The notes under the pieces are model-generated. The model saw only the letters and a list, made by a program, of their open reading frames with translations. It did no database searches and was not told the DNA's origin. This document shows positions 5,413-34,184 of a stretch of DNA of 36,734 nucleotides, in pieces. The stretch covers positions 2,415 through 39,148 of the forward strand of contig PNAR01000292.1 of assembly GCA_003169715.1 (NCBI GenBank). The letters run 5' to 3'. The stretch is from Acidobacteriaceae bacterium. GTDB taxonomy: Bacteria > Acidobacteriota > Terriglobia > Terriglobales > Acidobacteriaceae. The number at the start of each line of letters is the position of its first letter. Within the stretch, counting starts at the first letter, position 1. Both the position numbers and the translations under genes were made by a program.

Positions 5413-6167
5413 CTTCCCGCTGCCAGCCGCGTGGCAAGACGCATGGGCAAGTTTGCCGCCATGATTCGCTCCTGCGCGCTCTTCAAATTGTAAGGCGTGC
5501 GGCAAAAGGTAACGACGCGGGAATCGGTGTCGTAGAGTGCAAACGCCGCTCGCCAGTTGCCGTCGCGAGGCTGCCCGACCGACCCAGGATTAATGAGGTA
5601 TCGAACACCATCCTTTAAAGGAAACTCGCTGGTTTCAACCTGTCCCACGGTCTGATACTCCGGATACGAAAGGTCGCCCTTGTTTTCCGGGGTAACGGAA
5701 AAGCTGCCTTGAAGATGGGTGTGACCAAAAAAAGTCAGATTACTCGAAGAAACCATTAATGGCTCGATCGCGTCGTGCAGAGTTACCAGATATTCGTCTT
5801 CATCCATCGGTGATCCGTGGACGAACTGCACTTCCTCCAATCCCTCGATTTGGGCGGGACCGCTGGGCAAGGCACGAAGCCATTCCAGATTTTCCGGCGG
5901 AAGGTGCTCGCGAGTCCATAGCGCCGCGATTCCCGCCACAGGATTGAAATCTTTCAGATCAGTGATTCCGCAGACCGCTTTATCGTGATTTCCTCGGACG
6001 AAAAACTCGCCCAATCCCTGAACGCTTTTGATGACCTCGTTGGGGCTGGCGCCGTATCCCACAACATCGCCGAGGTTTGCGACCATATCGTGGGCGGGAG
6101 CCGCTGCGAGGCAGGCCTCCAATGCTTCCAGATTGCTGTGAATATCACTCAGGATAAGTATGCGCAA
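5409..6167 (-). CDS. Metallophosphoesterase (YfcE/MJ0936-like)
   Basis: MRILILSDIHSNLEALEACL, NLGDVVGYGASPNEVI, VRGNHDKAV, FFGHTHLQGSF, YLINPGSVGQPRDGN. Confidence 0.92.
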   Translation of the reverse strand: MRILILSDIHSNLEALEACLAAAPAHDMVANLGDVVGYGASPNEVIKSVQGLGEFFVRGNHDKAVCGITDLKDFNPVAGIAALWTREHLPPENLEWLRALPSGPAQIEGLEEVQFVHGSPMDEDEYLVTLHDAIEPLMVSSSNLTFFGHTHLQGSFSVTPENKGDLSYPEYQTVGQVETSEFPLKDGVRYLINPGSVGQPRDGNWRAAFALYDTDSRVVTFCRTPYNLKSAQERIMAANLPMRLATRLAAGR

Positions 6168-11526: not shown

Positions 11527-13080
11527 ATGAAAAATTGCCATCGTTCTCGAGCTGAATTTAGACACGCGAGTTTGTTTCTTTTAGTTCTGCCTTTGATGCT
11601 GGGTTGCGGTTCCAGCACGCCTTCAGAAACCACCACCACGCCGCCGTCAAATAACTTTCAGACCGTCTCCCTAACCCGGCTCAGTCAGGATACGTTTACG
11701 AACTCCACCAGCCAGCACGCCACGGAAGTCGAGCCCGGTTTGTATGCGTTTGGCTCGACCATGGTGACCGCGTTTCAGGTAGGGCGAATTTCGAGCGGCG
11801 GCGGAGCTGACATCGGATTCGCAACTTCTACCGACGCGGGAACGACGTGGAACAGCGGTTATCTTCCAGGGATCACAACCTTCCAGGGAGGGGGATCATT
11901 CAGTGCAGCCAGCGATGCCGTCGTCGCCTTCGACGCCGCCCACGCGATGTGGATGATCTCATCGCTTGGAATCAATGCTACGGCTCAGGTGCTCGTAAAC
12001 CGTTCGCCAGACGGCATTAATTGGGGAAATCCAATCGCCGTCAGCACGAATGGAGACACCGATAAGAATTGGATCGTCTGCGACAATACGCCCGCCAGCC
12101 CCTTCTACGGTCATTGTTATGTGGAATGGGATGATCCTTCGAATCAGGACATCATTGAAATGAGCACATCCAAAGATGGAGGGCTTACCTGGAGCTCCGC
12201 CCAGAACACAGCCAATTCGGCGCAGGGTATTGGGGGAGTTCCGTTGGTTCAGCCCAACGGAATCGTGGTCGTTCCGATTCTTGGAATTTCGGGCAATTCC
12301 GAGATCATCACTGCATTTACCTCTACCGATGGTGGCGGCAGTTGGAGCGCTCCAGTCACGGTCTCTCCGGTCACCGATCATCAGGTAGCCGGCAATCTGC
12401 GCACCTCCGCATTGCCTTCCGCTCAAGTGGACGCTACGGGCACGGTTTATGTGATCTGGCAGGATTGCCGCTTCCGGACTAATTGTGCGTCCAACGATCT
12501 GGTACTCAGCACTTCGACGGATGGAGTTACCTGGACCAATCCAGCGCGCGTGCCGATTGATGCAGCTACAAGCACGGTGGATCATTTCATTCCTGGATTA
12601 GGTGTTAATCCCACAACCTCCGGCGCCAGCGCTCACTTGACGTTGACTTACTATTTTTATCCCGTCTCGAATTGCGGGACCACTTGCAGCCTTGGACTCG
12701 GTTACGTCTCCTCGCAGGATGCCGGGCAGACGTGGAGTGCCCCAACTCAATTGGTTGGCGGTATGAGTCTTACCTGGCTGCCAAACACGTTTTCCGGACT
12801 CATGGTAGCCGATTACATTTCCACTTCCTTTGCAAATGGCAAAGCCTTCGGAGTATTCGCGGTCGCCAATCCCCCTAACGGAAGTGTTTTTAACGAGGCG
12901 ATATATACGACGCCGTCTCCGTTAGTCGCGGAAGAAAACGGAAGAAGGGTCAGTTCCAAACGGGAAAGCCCTATCCCGAATGCAAAATCCGATCACGGTC
13001 CGAGACGGTTCTACGATGAGGATCACGAATATCCAATCCCGCCGCCGAAAAGAGACATGAGACGGTCGGCAAGAAAATGA
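11527..13080 (+). CDS. Exported sialidase/BNR-repeat-like lipoprotein
   Basis: Lipobox LLVLPLMLGCGSS; repeated Asp-box-like STDAGTTWNSG, SKDGGLTWSSA, STDGGGSWSAP, STDGVTWTNP, SQDAGQTWSAP. Confidence 0.82.
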   Translation: MKNCHRSRAEFRHASLFLLVLPLMLGCGSSTPSETTTTPPSNNFQTVSLTRLSQDTFTNSTSQHATEVEPGLYAFGSTMVTAFQVGRISSGGGADIGFATSTDAGTTWNSGYLPGITTFQGGGSFSAASDAVVAFDAAHAMWMISSLGINATAQVLVNRSPDGINWGNPIAVSTNGDTDKNWIVCDNTPASPFYGHCYVEWDDPSNQDIIEMSTSKDGGLTWSSAQNTANSAQGIGGVPLVQPNGIVVVPILGISGNSEIITAFTSTDGGGSWSAPVTVSPVTDHQVAGNLRTSALPSAQVDATGTVYVIWQDCRFRTNCASNDLVLSTSTDGVTWTNPARVPIDAATSTVDHFIPGLGVNPTTSGASAHLTLTYYFYPVSNCGTTCSLGLGYVSSQDAGQTWSAPTQLVGGMSLTWLPNTFSGLMVADYISTSFANGKAFGVFAVANPPNGSVFNEAIYTTPSPLVAEENGRRVSSKRESPIPNAKSDHGPRRFYDEDHEYPIPPPKRDMRRSARK

Positions 13081-13372
13081 TTGTCCCGCCGAAGACCGTA
13101 AACATTGGGCGCACACCCTTTTTACACACAGCGATCTTTGGCGCGGATTCCAAACCTGTTCGCGAACATGCCCGCAAATTCCGTGTAGGTTAGCTGCCGG
13201 ATCAAGCTGCTAACGCGACTTGCACCGAATCCGGTCACAGGCTTGTGGAGAGGCTGCACTCGATTGAATCAAAGCAAGATAAAACGTCGCATTTTTCGTT
13301 GACTCTAAAAATAGAAGGAGTAAAAACATAATCGTTCTTTGACACGTTCTAAGTTTACCCGGTTGGTGCGAT

Positions 13373-13710
13373 GTCCGGGACTCAAGCGAGATCACTCAGC
13401 ACCATCGCAAGATGGAGCAGAGAGGGTCAGCAAGGGTCTAATAGCTGAGCGCTGGTTGAGGCGAACAGGAACACCATGTCAGAGGCAAGATAGAGTCCCG
13501 AGGCGTTGAACAAGTTTTTCCGGTTGGCGGTAAGCCCGGAGCCCGAGTGACGATCGCCTGTCGCAGCCGTAAGGCCGCAACAGCAGCAGGTCGGCAAGGG
13601 TCTAACGCGAGCTACTGGCCGAGACGAATACGTTCAACATCACCTCGGGACTCTTATTTTTTACGACTTGTTTACTTTCTACTCGGGACCGGCAGCCAAC
13701 CGAGTTTTTT
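13373..13710 (+). ncRNA. Candidate structured non-coding RNA with two homologous tandem domains and a terminator
   Basis: Two copies of GNRA hairpin + 9/10 nt + GGTC[A/G]GCAAGGGTCTAA (13402-13441; 13563-13605); 11-bp stem GAGTCCCGAGG(13493-13503)/CCTCGGGACTC(13643-13653) plus 6 bp TTGAAC/GTTCAA; terminator at 13681-13710. Confidence 0.7.
13681..13710 (+). terminator. Rho-independent terminator of the candidate structured RNA
   Basis: ACTCGG(13681-13686)...CCGAGT(13700-13705) followed by TTTTT. Confidence 0.6.
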
Positions 13711-13822
13711 CCTGCGACCATTGCTAACTCTCGCTCTTGAGTCGGCGCATCAGTCCTTTCAAGACTGAAATGTGCACGGCTGTTGCCAATTTAACCGAAC
13801 ACAAATAGGTATTTGTTGACGG

Positions 13823-16576
13823 CTACATTGTCGTGGGCACGATGAAGTAGGGCTGGTTCGTCAGGTCTATGGCGAAGCCTGGATAGAGCCATGCCTTTTC
13901 GGGGATCTCTCTCAACTCGAAGTAATATTGAATGGAATATTTTGACGCGGTGTAGCTCGCCGGAATAACTGTTCGATACTCACCGTGTATTTCCGGTATT
14001 TCCGGTATTTCCGCGACCTCGTACCGCTCCGCCTGATTTACATGCCGGTAATGTAAGCGGACAGAAATTGGCTTGGTTGGTTGCTTGACCGAGAGAACGA
14101 TCTCTAAATCCTTTCCTGGCAGGAAGCGGGGAGAAGGCGTATGGGAGCATGCGACGGAACCCCGCGGCGGCCGCCCGAGTGCTTCCTGAATTGCCGACCG
14201 GACTCGCGCAGGTTGCGGCTGACCTTCCTGAAGCGATTCAATCCGCTTTGCCATCAGGGCGATGTCAACATCCATAGCGAGCAAGCGGTCCAGCCAGTTG
14301 CCACGCATTCGGGGGAGGGGCCCAAATGTCATGTCGAAAACGTAAATGGCCTTGGTCTCTTCGGCGAATTGGGACCAGATTTCCCGCGCGCGGCGATATT
14401 GCTTCAACGCTTCTTCGAGTGCCGCCCGGTCAGTCGAACGCTCATGGATTGCATAAAGCGTGCCGCTGCGAAGTTCTGCGGCAAAAAAACTTCCCAGGCC
14501 GATATGAATTTTTAGATCAACCACCGCCCTGCGGAACTCTGGGTTTGTGTTTATTACAGGTTGACCATTCGTTCCGTTCGATTTGGCGCCCGCTTCAGTC
14601 AGGCGATTGTCTGCTTCTTGGGCAAGGTCCTCCAGCCATTGCGCGACTTCAACCGGAGAATATTTGCCGGAGCGTTCGCCCTTGAGCAACTCGTCCGCGA
14701 AATCGCTGATGCGAGAAAACATTTGCGGATCCAATGGGCTGACATTCCCAAATACTTTCGGCGCGGGCGTATCGCCATAAGGCTGCGGTTCGTTCGCATC
14801 CACGATTGGCTGGTTGGTGTAGAACTCGGGACCGAAGGTATCGTTGACGGCTGAGGGTAGGTGCGCCGTAGTAACGAGCGGCAGGATTCGCGTCGCACTG
14901 CTTAACGCTGCTTCGAGAGCGGGCGCGCTGCCGCCAAATTGCTTACGAAGATATCGCTGCCAAACATCAGGGTCCGCGTGCGCGTTATAAAGCAGGCGTC
15001 CCCATACGCGATAGGTGTAAAGATATTTTTCCCAATCCCGGTGAGGATTCAAAGATTTGTCAGCGTAGGCGCAGCGCCCGCCAGGTAAACCCGATCCGCG
15101 GCGGCCTTTGAAAGATAGCGGCTCGAACAATTCCGCTCCCGCACCCCCGCAAAAACGAAAGGCATGGGCGTGAGCGGCGGTCGAGATCGGATCGCCCCAC
15201 AGCAGGAACCTGTGGGTGCCGGGCCAGACACGATACATCACACTGTAAGGACGATCCCGCTTCAAGAAATCCGCATAGCCGTAACGGGTAAAAATTCTTG
15301 ATCCGGTGCTGAGGGCGGAGAAATCGTCGTGCTTGAGATCTTTCCGTGGCATTTCCAGATCGCGGATCGCCGCCTGATGGTAAGGCAAACCCATATGCTC
15401 GGCCCAGTATTTGGGCGAGAGCTTGACTGGCATGTGAGTAGCAAGAGCCTCATCAATGATGGGCTGGTCCAGGCCCTTGGTATGCAGATCAATCTCGACC
15501 TTGCGGCCAGATCGCGGCACGCCTTCGAACACGGTTTTCCAGAACGAATAACTCCCTTCGCGTACACCGCTCTCTGCGTGAGTACGCAGCGTCACGCCAC
15601 TGATATCGGGACATGCTTTCAACAATGCAGTTAGTGCATCACGGCAGTACGCAGCATGATTCGCGGGCGTTAGCCCTTCGATAACATAATTCGCGTTCGA
15701 GCTGTCCGGCCCCCACTCGTATCCGTGAGTCCAAATGCCTAGCTGGAAGTCAATCCCGTGTGCCACAGCTTGCTGGCTGATGAACTGAAGCATCTCCAGA
15801 TTTTGGTCTCGTTCCGCTTCCGGCAAGTTAGTGGCCTTCACCTCATAGCCCGGCACAGAAAGTAAAAACGGATAAGCGAAAAGAAAGTACGCATCGGCAA
15901 CGCTCTCCAAAGAGTCATAGCCGATGCCCAGCGCCAGCTGAAAACGATTAAACCGCTGCGATGCGAGCATTGAAAAGTATGCTGGCCACATCTCGCGGTC
16001 GTTGAACCAGGGCTTATCTTCGACATCGCTGACAAATAAACGTGCCACGCTTCGAACCTGATTGAAAGGCTGCTCGGCTACTGGCGCCTGCGTCTTCAAC
16101 GCCTGAATCGGATCGTCCGAGTACTTTATCCGGTCCGCTAATTCAAGAACTGCATACATCACTCCCCGCGCATCGCTGCCACATGCCAGCAGCATCGGGC
16201 TGCCCTTGTGCGTGGAAGGCACCAGGGCGAGGCACTCCGGCGCATTTGATACTGAGATATTCGCATCCTTGAGGATTTTCGAAACAGGAGGAGTGTTATG
16301 ACTACCGACCATCAAACAGAAACTGGACGGCGGACATTGATCCAGGGTATTGAACTGCCGAACGCTCATGCCGTGTTCTTCGATGGTACGGGTCAATTCT
16401 CGAATGGCCCAAGTTGCGGGAGCTGGCGACACGGCCAAGTCTGAGGGGTCTGCAACCAGGCAAATCGTAGCGTCGCCACCAGATTGCGCTGTGCCGGACG
16501 CGCCCAGCCGAAAAGCGCCGACGGACAACGCTGTCATCTGAATAAAATCGCGGCGGGAGAGATTTCTGGTTTTCAC
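13823..16576 (-). CDS. Tat-exported large protein, possible carbohydrate-active enzyme (N-terminal region resembles alpha-glucuronidase/GH20-type domains)
   Basis: Twin-arginine signal MKTRNLSRRDFIQMTALSVGAFRLGASGTAQ; SDARGVMYAVLELADRIKY block typical of such N-terminal domains; 917 aa open frame. Confidence 0.65.
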   Translation of the reverse strand: MKTRNLSRRDFIQMTALSVGAFRLGASGTAQSGGDATICLVADPSDLAVSPAPATWAIRELTRTIEEHGMSVRQFNTLDQCPPSSFCLMVGSHNTPPVSKILKDANISVSNAPECLALVPSTHKGSPMLLACGSDARGVMYAVLELADRIKYSDDPIQALKTQAPVAEQPFNQVRSVARLFVSDVEDKPWFNDREMWPAYFSMLASQRFNRFQLALGIGYDSLESVADAYFLFAYPFLLSVPGYEVKATNLPEAERDQNLEMLQFISQQAVAHGIDFQLGIWTHGYEWGPDSSNANYVIEGLTPANHAAYCRDALTALLKACPDISGVTLRTHAESGVREGSYSFWKTVFEGVPRSGRKVEIDLHTKGLDQPIIDEALATHMPVKLSPKYWAEHMGLPYHQAAIRDLEMPRKDLKHDDFSALSTGSRIFTRYGYADFLKRDRPYSVMYRVWPGTHRFLLWGDPISTAAHAHAFRFCGGAGAELFEPLSFKGRRGSGLPGGRCAYADKSLNPHRDWEKYLYTYRVWGRLLYNAHADPDVWQRYLRKQFGGSAPALEAALSSATRILPLVTTAHLPSAVNDTFGPEFYTNQPIVDANEPQPYGDTPAPKVFGNVSPLDPQMFSRISDFADELLKGERSGKYSPVEVAQWLEDLAQEADNRLTEAGAKSNGTNGQPVINTNPEFRRAVVDLKIHIGLGSFFAAELRSGTLYAIHERSTDRAALEEALKQYRRAREIWSQFAEETKAIYVFDMTFGPLPRMRGNWLDRLLAMDVDIALMAKRIESLQEGQPQPARVRSAIQEALGRPPRGSVACSHTPSPRFLPGKDLEIVLSVKQPTKPISVRLHYRHVNQAERYEVAEIPEIPEIHGEYRTVIPASYTASKYSIQYYFELREIPEKAWLYPGFAIDLTNQPYFIVPTTM

Positions 16577-33878: not shown

Positions 33879-34164
33879 GACGGTGGCGTGGCCTGTCAGC
33901 AGCTTTATAAGCCGGCCGAGACGCGCATCTGTTTGTGGCGTTGGGGGCTTGGAGTGTGCTCTTCGGGTTGGAAGTTCTTCGGGGATGCTGGAATTATGAG
34001 CTAATGAAATTGAAACGACAAACCCGTCTACTGGCGCAGTTTGAATAGACTGGCGTCACCGGGGTCATCCCGCAGGCTTTACAGTCTGTATCGAAACTCG
34101 TTGAAAGCAAGCGAGCGGAATGGATCGTGGCAAGAACCAGCTCCGGAGGAGCGGCATAGCTTAG

Positions 34165-34184
34165 CCCCGGACGTCAGTCCGGGG
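34165..34184. repeat. Intergenic palindromic hairpin CCCCGGAC-GTCA-GTCCGGGG
   Basis: Perfect 8-bp stem with 4-nt loop in the nadC-birA gap. Confidence 0.55.

Follow-up and report, generated by a model that had tools for sequence, protein, structure and literature searches.

A stand-alone structured RNA gene of two similar rods, absent from the public RNA catalogue, in an Acidobacteriaceae genome

What is encoded by an intergenic gap that holds two copies of one structured motif, and what its product may do, is the question raised by this locus. The gap, of 742 bp, occupies positions 13081-13822 of the window, by which we mean the whole 36,734-nucleotide stretch of DNA that was analysed, and is bordered on the left by a BNR-repeat protein gene (11527-13080, + strand) and on the right by a 917-aa gene without Pfam match (13823-16576, - strand). 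A preliminary description of this DNA had read in it a structured RNA, as yet unexplained, in which two homologous domains stand in tandem. Here, we describe a stand-alone structured RNA gene of about 330 bases, which consists of two similar rods and is absent from the public RNA catalogue; the family is secure, but what we say of its function is purely inferred. The RNA has the look neither of a protein gene nor of a riboswitch or a mobile element, and its gene looks functional and ancient. Acidobacteria are among the most abundant soil phyla, and the catalogue has lacked this RNA gene of theirs, which is conserved, under strong selection and equipped with a promoter and a terminator of its own. 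In addition, the number of domains varies between sister families while each position is conserved, which provides a natural experiment in the growth of large RNAs by domain duplication, and the rod-by-rod build gives a clear handle for finding the partner and the function.

Extent and transcription signals of the gene

The limits of the gene were inferred from an alignment of its copies. The conserved promoter includes a -35 box (TTGACT, 13299-13304, + strand), and TTGAC occurs 29-34 nt upstream of position 13330 in all 82 copies (at -31 or -30 in 75 of them), compared with 2/82 copies in a control stretch from -120 to -60. After a 16-nt spacer there is a -10-like box (TAAAAA, 13321-13326, + strand), the consensus of 81 copies being TTGACT..aAaaatagaAGGaGTAaAAacA, and the alignment shows a conserved GTAaAA box downstream of TTGAC. 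At the other end, the 3' arm of the domain 2 closing helix and a U-run (TTATTTTTT) form an intrinsic terminator at 13643-13662 (+ strand); the 8 nt that follow this helix contain at least five T in 75/78 copies, compared with 10/77 in a control further downstream. It was the comparative alignment that revealed both signals, whereas a generic sigma-70 promoter scan did not call the -10-like box or a promoter and a generic terminator scan was likewise empty. Because of the TTGAC/-10-like promoter and the domain 2 helix with its U-run, we place the transcription unit between ~13333 and ~13662; the ends of this predicted + strand transcript (about 13333-13662) are thus inferred from promoter spacing and the U-run and were not measured.

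Conservation in the alignment fades beyond about 13662. The RNA had been assigned to 13373-13710 and its terminator to 13681-13710, and of this assignment the location in the gap and the + strand hold, but the limits do not: the hairpin and T-run at 13681-13710 (+ strand) are specific to the window and could serve at most as a back-up terminator. The + strand folds better than shuffles (z -3.1) and the - strand is nearly as good (z -2.7); both strands fold well, and therefore folding energy alone does not decide the strand.

Rod structure and covariation

Both domains are predicted to fold as long rods, in which the closing helix is followed by a CCGGUUGG/CUGGYYGAG helix that contains a bulged A; an internal loop, a helix of 4 bp, a further internal loop (AA/AA) and a GC step come next, and the tip, capped by a GNRA loop, is variable. 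Domain 1 (13332-13490, + strand) is closed by helix 1 (13332-13343 with 13478-13490; 97.4% of cells paired), and its rod core (13351-13467, + strand; 98.3 bits with model R3, whose training set includes this domain) passes from the CCGGUUGG/CUGGUYGAG helix, which carries the bulged A, through an internal loop, the 4-bp helix and the AA/AA loop to the apical helix. Domain 2 (13490-13656, + strand) is closed by helix 9 (13492-13503 with 13643-13654), of whose 12 pairs 8 changed on both sides and in which 99.6% of cells pair, and its core (13512-13630, + strand) scores 104.5 bits with R3. The hairpins and motifs quoted in the preliminary description were found in place by direct reading, all on the + strand: the apical hairpin CCATC-GCAA-GATGG at 13402-13415 (helix 8, a variable tip with 4/4 pairs changed on both sides) and the motif GGTCAGCAAGGGTCTAA at 13425-13441 in domain 1, and the apical hairpin GCAGCC-GTAA-GGCCGC at 13563-13578 (helix 15, one A.C mismatch) and the motif GGTCGGCAAGGGTCTAA at 13589-13605 in domain 2. 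The pairing of GGTCRGC with CTGGYY that had been proposed for both copies was unsupported; the partner of CTGGYY is instead CCGGTTGG, which lies upstream of it (A2 columns 30-41 with 134-146), and that of GGTC is RTC at 13391-13393, where the first pair is G-C in 50, A-U in 20 and G-U in 6 copies.

Covariation was assessed in an alignment of 79 full copies scored against the consensus fold. Pairing was retained in 96.7% of cells (38-48% in slid controls), and 52 pairs changed on both sides, compared with a mean of 25.6 after shuffling and 23-30 in slid controls; double changes numbered 498 cells, and 147 when shuffled. When scores were corrected, 13 of the top 21 for covariation fell on predicted pairs and a further 3 on neighbours of such a pair. 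Covariation of the predicted fold across these 79 sequences is therefore overwhelming. The likeness of the two domains is also far beyond chance: the covariance model of domain 2 recognised domain 1 with 65 bits (E 3e-15), whereas unrelated places in the 36.7 kb reached 12.5 bits at best, and the domain 1 model (R2) recognised domain 2 with 65.6 bits (E 1.6e-15), so that the homology of the tandem domains, claimed at the outset, was borne out from both sides.

In some relatives (L043, L048, L050, L051, L054 and L057) a multi-branched hairpin tree takes the place of the domain 1 tip, with the remaining rod kept; variation of the tip is therefore tolerated, and it is probably the rod body that does the work. 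These expanded tips, of 60-300 nt with strong hairpins (for example L057 2365-2972 and L050 8075-8770), are striking and unexplained. We rejected the reading of such inserts in f1 copies as extra domains, since they fold as multi-branched domain 1 apices and match the rod model poorly. A conserved 5' segment, CGUUCUUUGACA, resembles boxA, and its sole exact match in the window's incomplete genome is the RNA locus; boxA was rejected as the main cause of its conservation, because the segment is an arm of helix 1 that pairs with GUCARAGG and co-varies with it, as in the change of UUCGGCA together with UGCUGAA in L036.

Distribution, genomic setting and the five-rod version

Well over 100 homologues were found in Acidobacteriota subdivision 1. 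A search at the DNA level covered 61 genomes and found the RNA conserved in 22 of them (that of the window being one), all from the window's family and often with two copies, and the domain 2 covariance model found the RNA in 76/151 genomes of this family (60/111 of good quality), most often in one or two full copies. Roughly half the genomes of the family have no match, which implies that the RNA can be dispensed with over evolutionary time. A pattern scan of GTDB genomes gave at least 120 stretches; among the matches listed, all were from Acidobacteria, and those named further belonged mostly to subdivision 1 (Korobacter, Sulfotelmatobacter, Angelobacter, Acidobacteriaceae and Terriglobales). 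Phylum- and class-wide samples (396 and 400 genomes), searched with stricter filters, contained the RNA in the window's family and a single sister family and nowhere else. In another order of the class a lax search was empty, but it covered only two genomes and shows little. A viral origin was rejected, as viral contigs gave no match to the one pattern tried.

The sister family carries a five-domain version of the RNA, which lay beyond what the preliminary description could see. Its distant matches were obtained by a lax search, and the sequence around them folds as a row of rods. A core-domain model was built from the rods of both families; five evenly spaced rods are present in genome G041 (62154-62901) and five, the last cut by the contig end, in G044, neither genome having been used in model building, and a further two genomes have five rods, also evenly spaced (G043), and two rods at a contig start (G050). 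In the domain alignment of the two families, 25 of 33 pairs changed on both sides (12.7 when shuffled). The five-rod RNAs are ~1 kb long, with a TTGACG promoter-like box and a terminal helix followed by a U-run, and an Rfam scan of the array returned only matches far below the cut-offs, none of them credible. In a tree of 49 domains, grouping is by position: the 7 groups require 6 changes, the smallest number that they allow, although the shortness of the domains leaves many inner branches weak; this grouping indicates that the rod positions are old and that the rods are not recent repeats. A folded 5' region before the first recognised rod of the sister-family RNA (L224 9790-9920, - strand; L237 about 5990-6130, + strand) may be a sixth, degenerate rod. 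In G043 the five-rod RNA is preceded at a distance of ~1.6 kb, and on its own strand, by an RNase P RNA (L224 11589-12006, - strand).

Two ancestral RNA loci are recognisable in the window's family, one with an adenosine-deaminase-like gene before the RNA and one with the order phosphoesterase, oligopeptide ABC, Band 7, RNA and carboxyltransferase. Synteny of the RNA loci is maintained over genera, with few copies per genome, and comparison has shown vertical inheritance of the RNA, with these two ancestral loci. Flanks of both loci are mixed at L121, L116, L115, L143 and L135, which is best explained by recombination between RNA copies, suggesting chromosome rearrangement of the kind seen with rRNA operons. 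Copies within a genome are 80-98% identical, and two genomes reach 96% and 98% compared with a between-genome maximum of 86% in the same set, pointing to occasional gene conversion; several contigs end inside RNA copies. The neighbouring genes are housekeeping or unrelated and vary between loci, and therefore no cis target is seen, in keeping with the original impression that no neighbour obviously explains the RNA. The downstream gene usually lies on the opposite strand, and its kind is not conserved.

At about 15 RNA loci a DUF5131 gene, with or without TcmP, lies downstream on the opposite strand, that is, convergent (for example L028 9706-11311, L042 7248-8066 and L056 3375-4918). DUF5131 is radical-SAM-like, with weak similarity to the NCBI 'radical SAM mobile pair protein A'. 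It tracks the carboxyltransferase-side flank of one ancestral locus and is present in both flank combinations, and it appears to be an old insertion on that flank. Genome G106 has two short partial rod-core matches (C31, 28037-28101, and C10, 299951-300015; 33 bits), one of them ~1.5 kb from a DUF5131 gene, which are possibly decayed copies.

Possible roles and relation to known RNAs

The preliminary description had held that a confident hit to a known Rfam class would remove the novelty and that a lack of covariation, or a conserved reading frame, would refute the RNA interpretation, and neither outcome occurred. Scanning of the RNA against Rfam 15, a check it had also proposed, gave no match at the gathering threshold nor at E<=5, and the whole gap 13081-13822 was likewise empty at that level. 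HEARO/IscB omegaRNA and group II introns were rejected, as there was no Rfam match and no nuclease or reverse-transcriptase domain among the neighbours checked. A Y RNA with a Ro60 partner was also rejected: TROVE occurs in 32/151 genomes, of which 16/32 have the RNA, equal to the base rate of 76/151. The literature searched contains no description of the RNA, although its coverage lacks some RNA-discovery papers, including a 2017 catalogue of 224 candidate RNAs. We know of no counterpart to a tandem-rod build with a family-specific number of rods. No catalogued RNA family matches it; its biochemical role could still be of a known kind.

What has been shown, as far as comparative sequence evidence reaches, is a predicted RNA with its own promoter, two homologous rods, a terminator formed by the last rod's closing helix, strong covariation and a five-rod sister version. 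We favour, without claiming quite an even chance for it, a free-standing, trans-acting structural RNA of a new family that acts as an ordered multi-site scaffold or RNP core. Each rod would present one copy of a conserved docking site, which is inferred, no partner having been identified; the candidate is a helix rich in G.U pairs, CCGGUUGG/CUGGYCGAG, which contains the bulged A and adjoins the 4-bp helix and AA/AA internal loop, the GNRA-capped tip being variable. The RNA would then be an ordered multi-site protein scaffold, or the core of an RNP, with a valence fixed by duplication of domains in the distant past. A stand-alone RNA that acts in trans is what the evidence supports. The further reasoning is that the rods are repeated, fixed in number per family and conserved by position, which suggests an ordered scaffold by inference, and that each rod position is an old separate lineage, so that each rod probably has a set place that the others could not take, like the parts of an assembled particle and unlike loose repeats. 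Against the scaffold stand the absence of expression data, an identified partner or a phenotype, the many family genomes in which the RNA is unmatched, and the fact that a sponge titrating a protein, or an oligomer made of RNA alone, could well have this anatomy too. Somewhat more tentatively, the RNA may represent a new modular architectural class in which a ~155-nt rod was duplicated and the copies specialised by position, so that Acidobacteria would have a defined particle of two or five parts, either an RNP or one of RNA only.

A sponge of the CsrB/RsmY style, in which equivalent repeated sites soak up a regulatory protein and the number of rods tunes the capacity, is unlikely but cannot be set aside. 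Tandem homologous domains whose number differs between families (2 and 5), in a stand-alone gene with its own promoter and terminator, fit it, and CsrB/RsmY-type RNAs serve as a working analogy for repeated binding sites. However, within either family the number of rods is stable, and every position forms an old lineage of its own, unlike the freely expanding repeats of sponges, and the conserved unit is the whole rod in a fixed position, not a short loop motif: inspection of the alignment found no CsrB/RsmY-type GGA loop conserved across domains, and the CsrA-like GGA of domain 2 (CCCGGAGCC) is missing from domain 1 and from the corresponding loops of the sister family. A further possibility, which we consider doubtful, is that the rods pack against their own copies, as OLE, ROOL and GOLLD form RNA-only homo-oligomeric complexes (PMC12286853). 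Those RNAs are similarly large, stand-alone and highly structured bacterial RNAs of poorly understood function, and the rod-like shape, long quasi-continuous helices, GNRA tips and ornate apices of some relatives would suit such packing. Unlike them, however, the tandem-rod RNA is built of repeated copies of one rod, lies on host chromosomes and not in phages as far as the one pattern tried on viral contigs shows, was found here only in two related acidobacterial families, has no pseudoknot shown and matches none of their Rfam models even at E<=5; moreover, the self-complementary CCGG of an internal loop, an obvious kissing site, is not retained in the sister family.

The remaining explanations carry little weight. 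Long imperfect hairpins in a stand-alone gene recall 6S RNA (RF00013), and the RNA could be a second regulator that targets RNA polymerase or the ribosome; this is improbable, because it lacks a single large central bubble and 6S RNA is present elsewhere in 12/13 family genomes tested, seven of which also carry the tandem-rod RNA. Identity with 6S RNA itself was rejected, as RF00013 matches at other loci of the same genomes and not at this element, and a two- or five-rod architecture is, to our knowledge, not known for 6S RNA. That the RNA is a substrate or partner of the DUF5131/TcmP pair is very improbable: the pair's convergent position at about 15 loci and the presence of the RNA in 33/52 DUF5131-positive genomes, compared with 76/151 overall, speak for it, but DUF5131 follows the carboxyltransferase-side flank in both flank combinations, as expected of a hitchhiker, and none was shown in 43/76 RNA-positive genomes, including the window's own incomplete one. 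We therefore treat DUF5131 as a hitchhiker, its linkage being explained by the shared flank. A cis-regulatory element (riboswitch, attenuator or leader) or a mobile or REP-like element is scarcely credible. The terminal helix is indeed a terminator and copies seemingly recombine between loci, yet there is no coherent same-strand set of downstream genes, the neighbours being variable and mostly convergent, and the few copies per genome and their synteny over genera are not those of a mobile element.

Non-coding RNAs already known from Acidobacteria include Acido-1 and Acido-Lenti-1 (RF01686, RF01687; PMC2864571). Neither matches the tandem-rod RNA, and the Acido-Lenti-1 model covers only 46 nt. 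The sole Rfam match in the window is an Acido-Lenti-1 RNA, a member of this known orphan family, at 34139-34184 on the - strand (RF01687, 56.3 bits).
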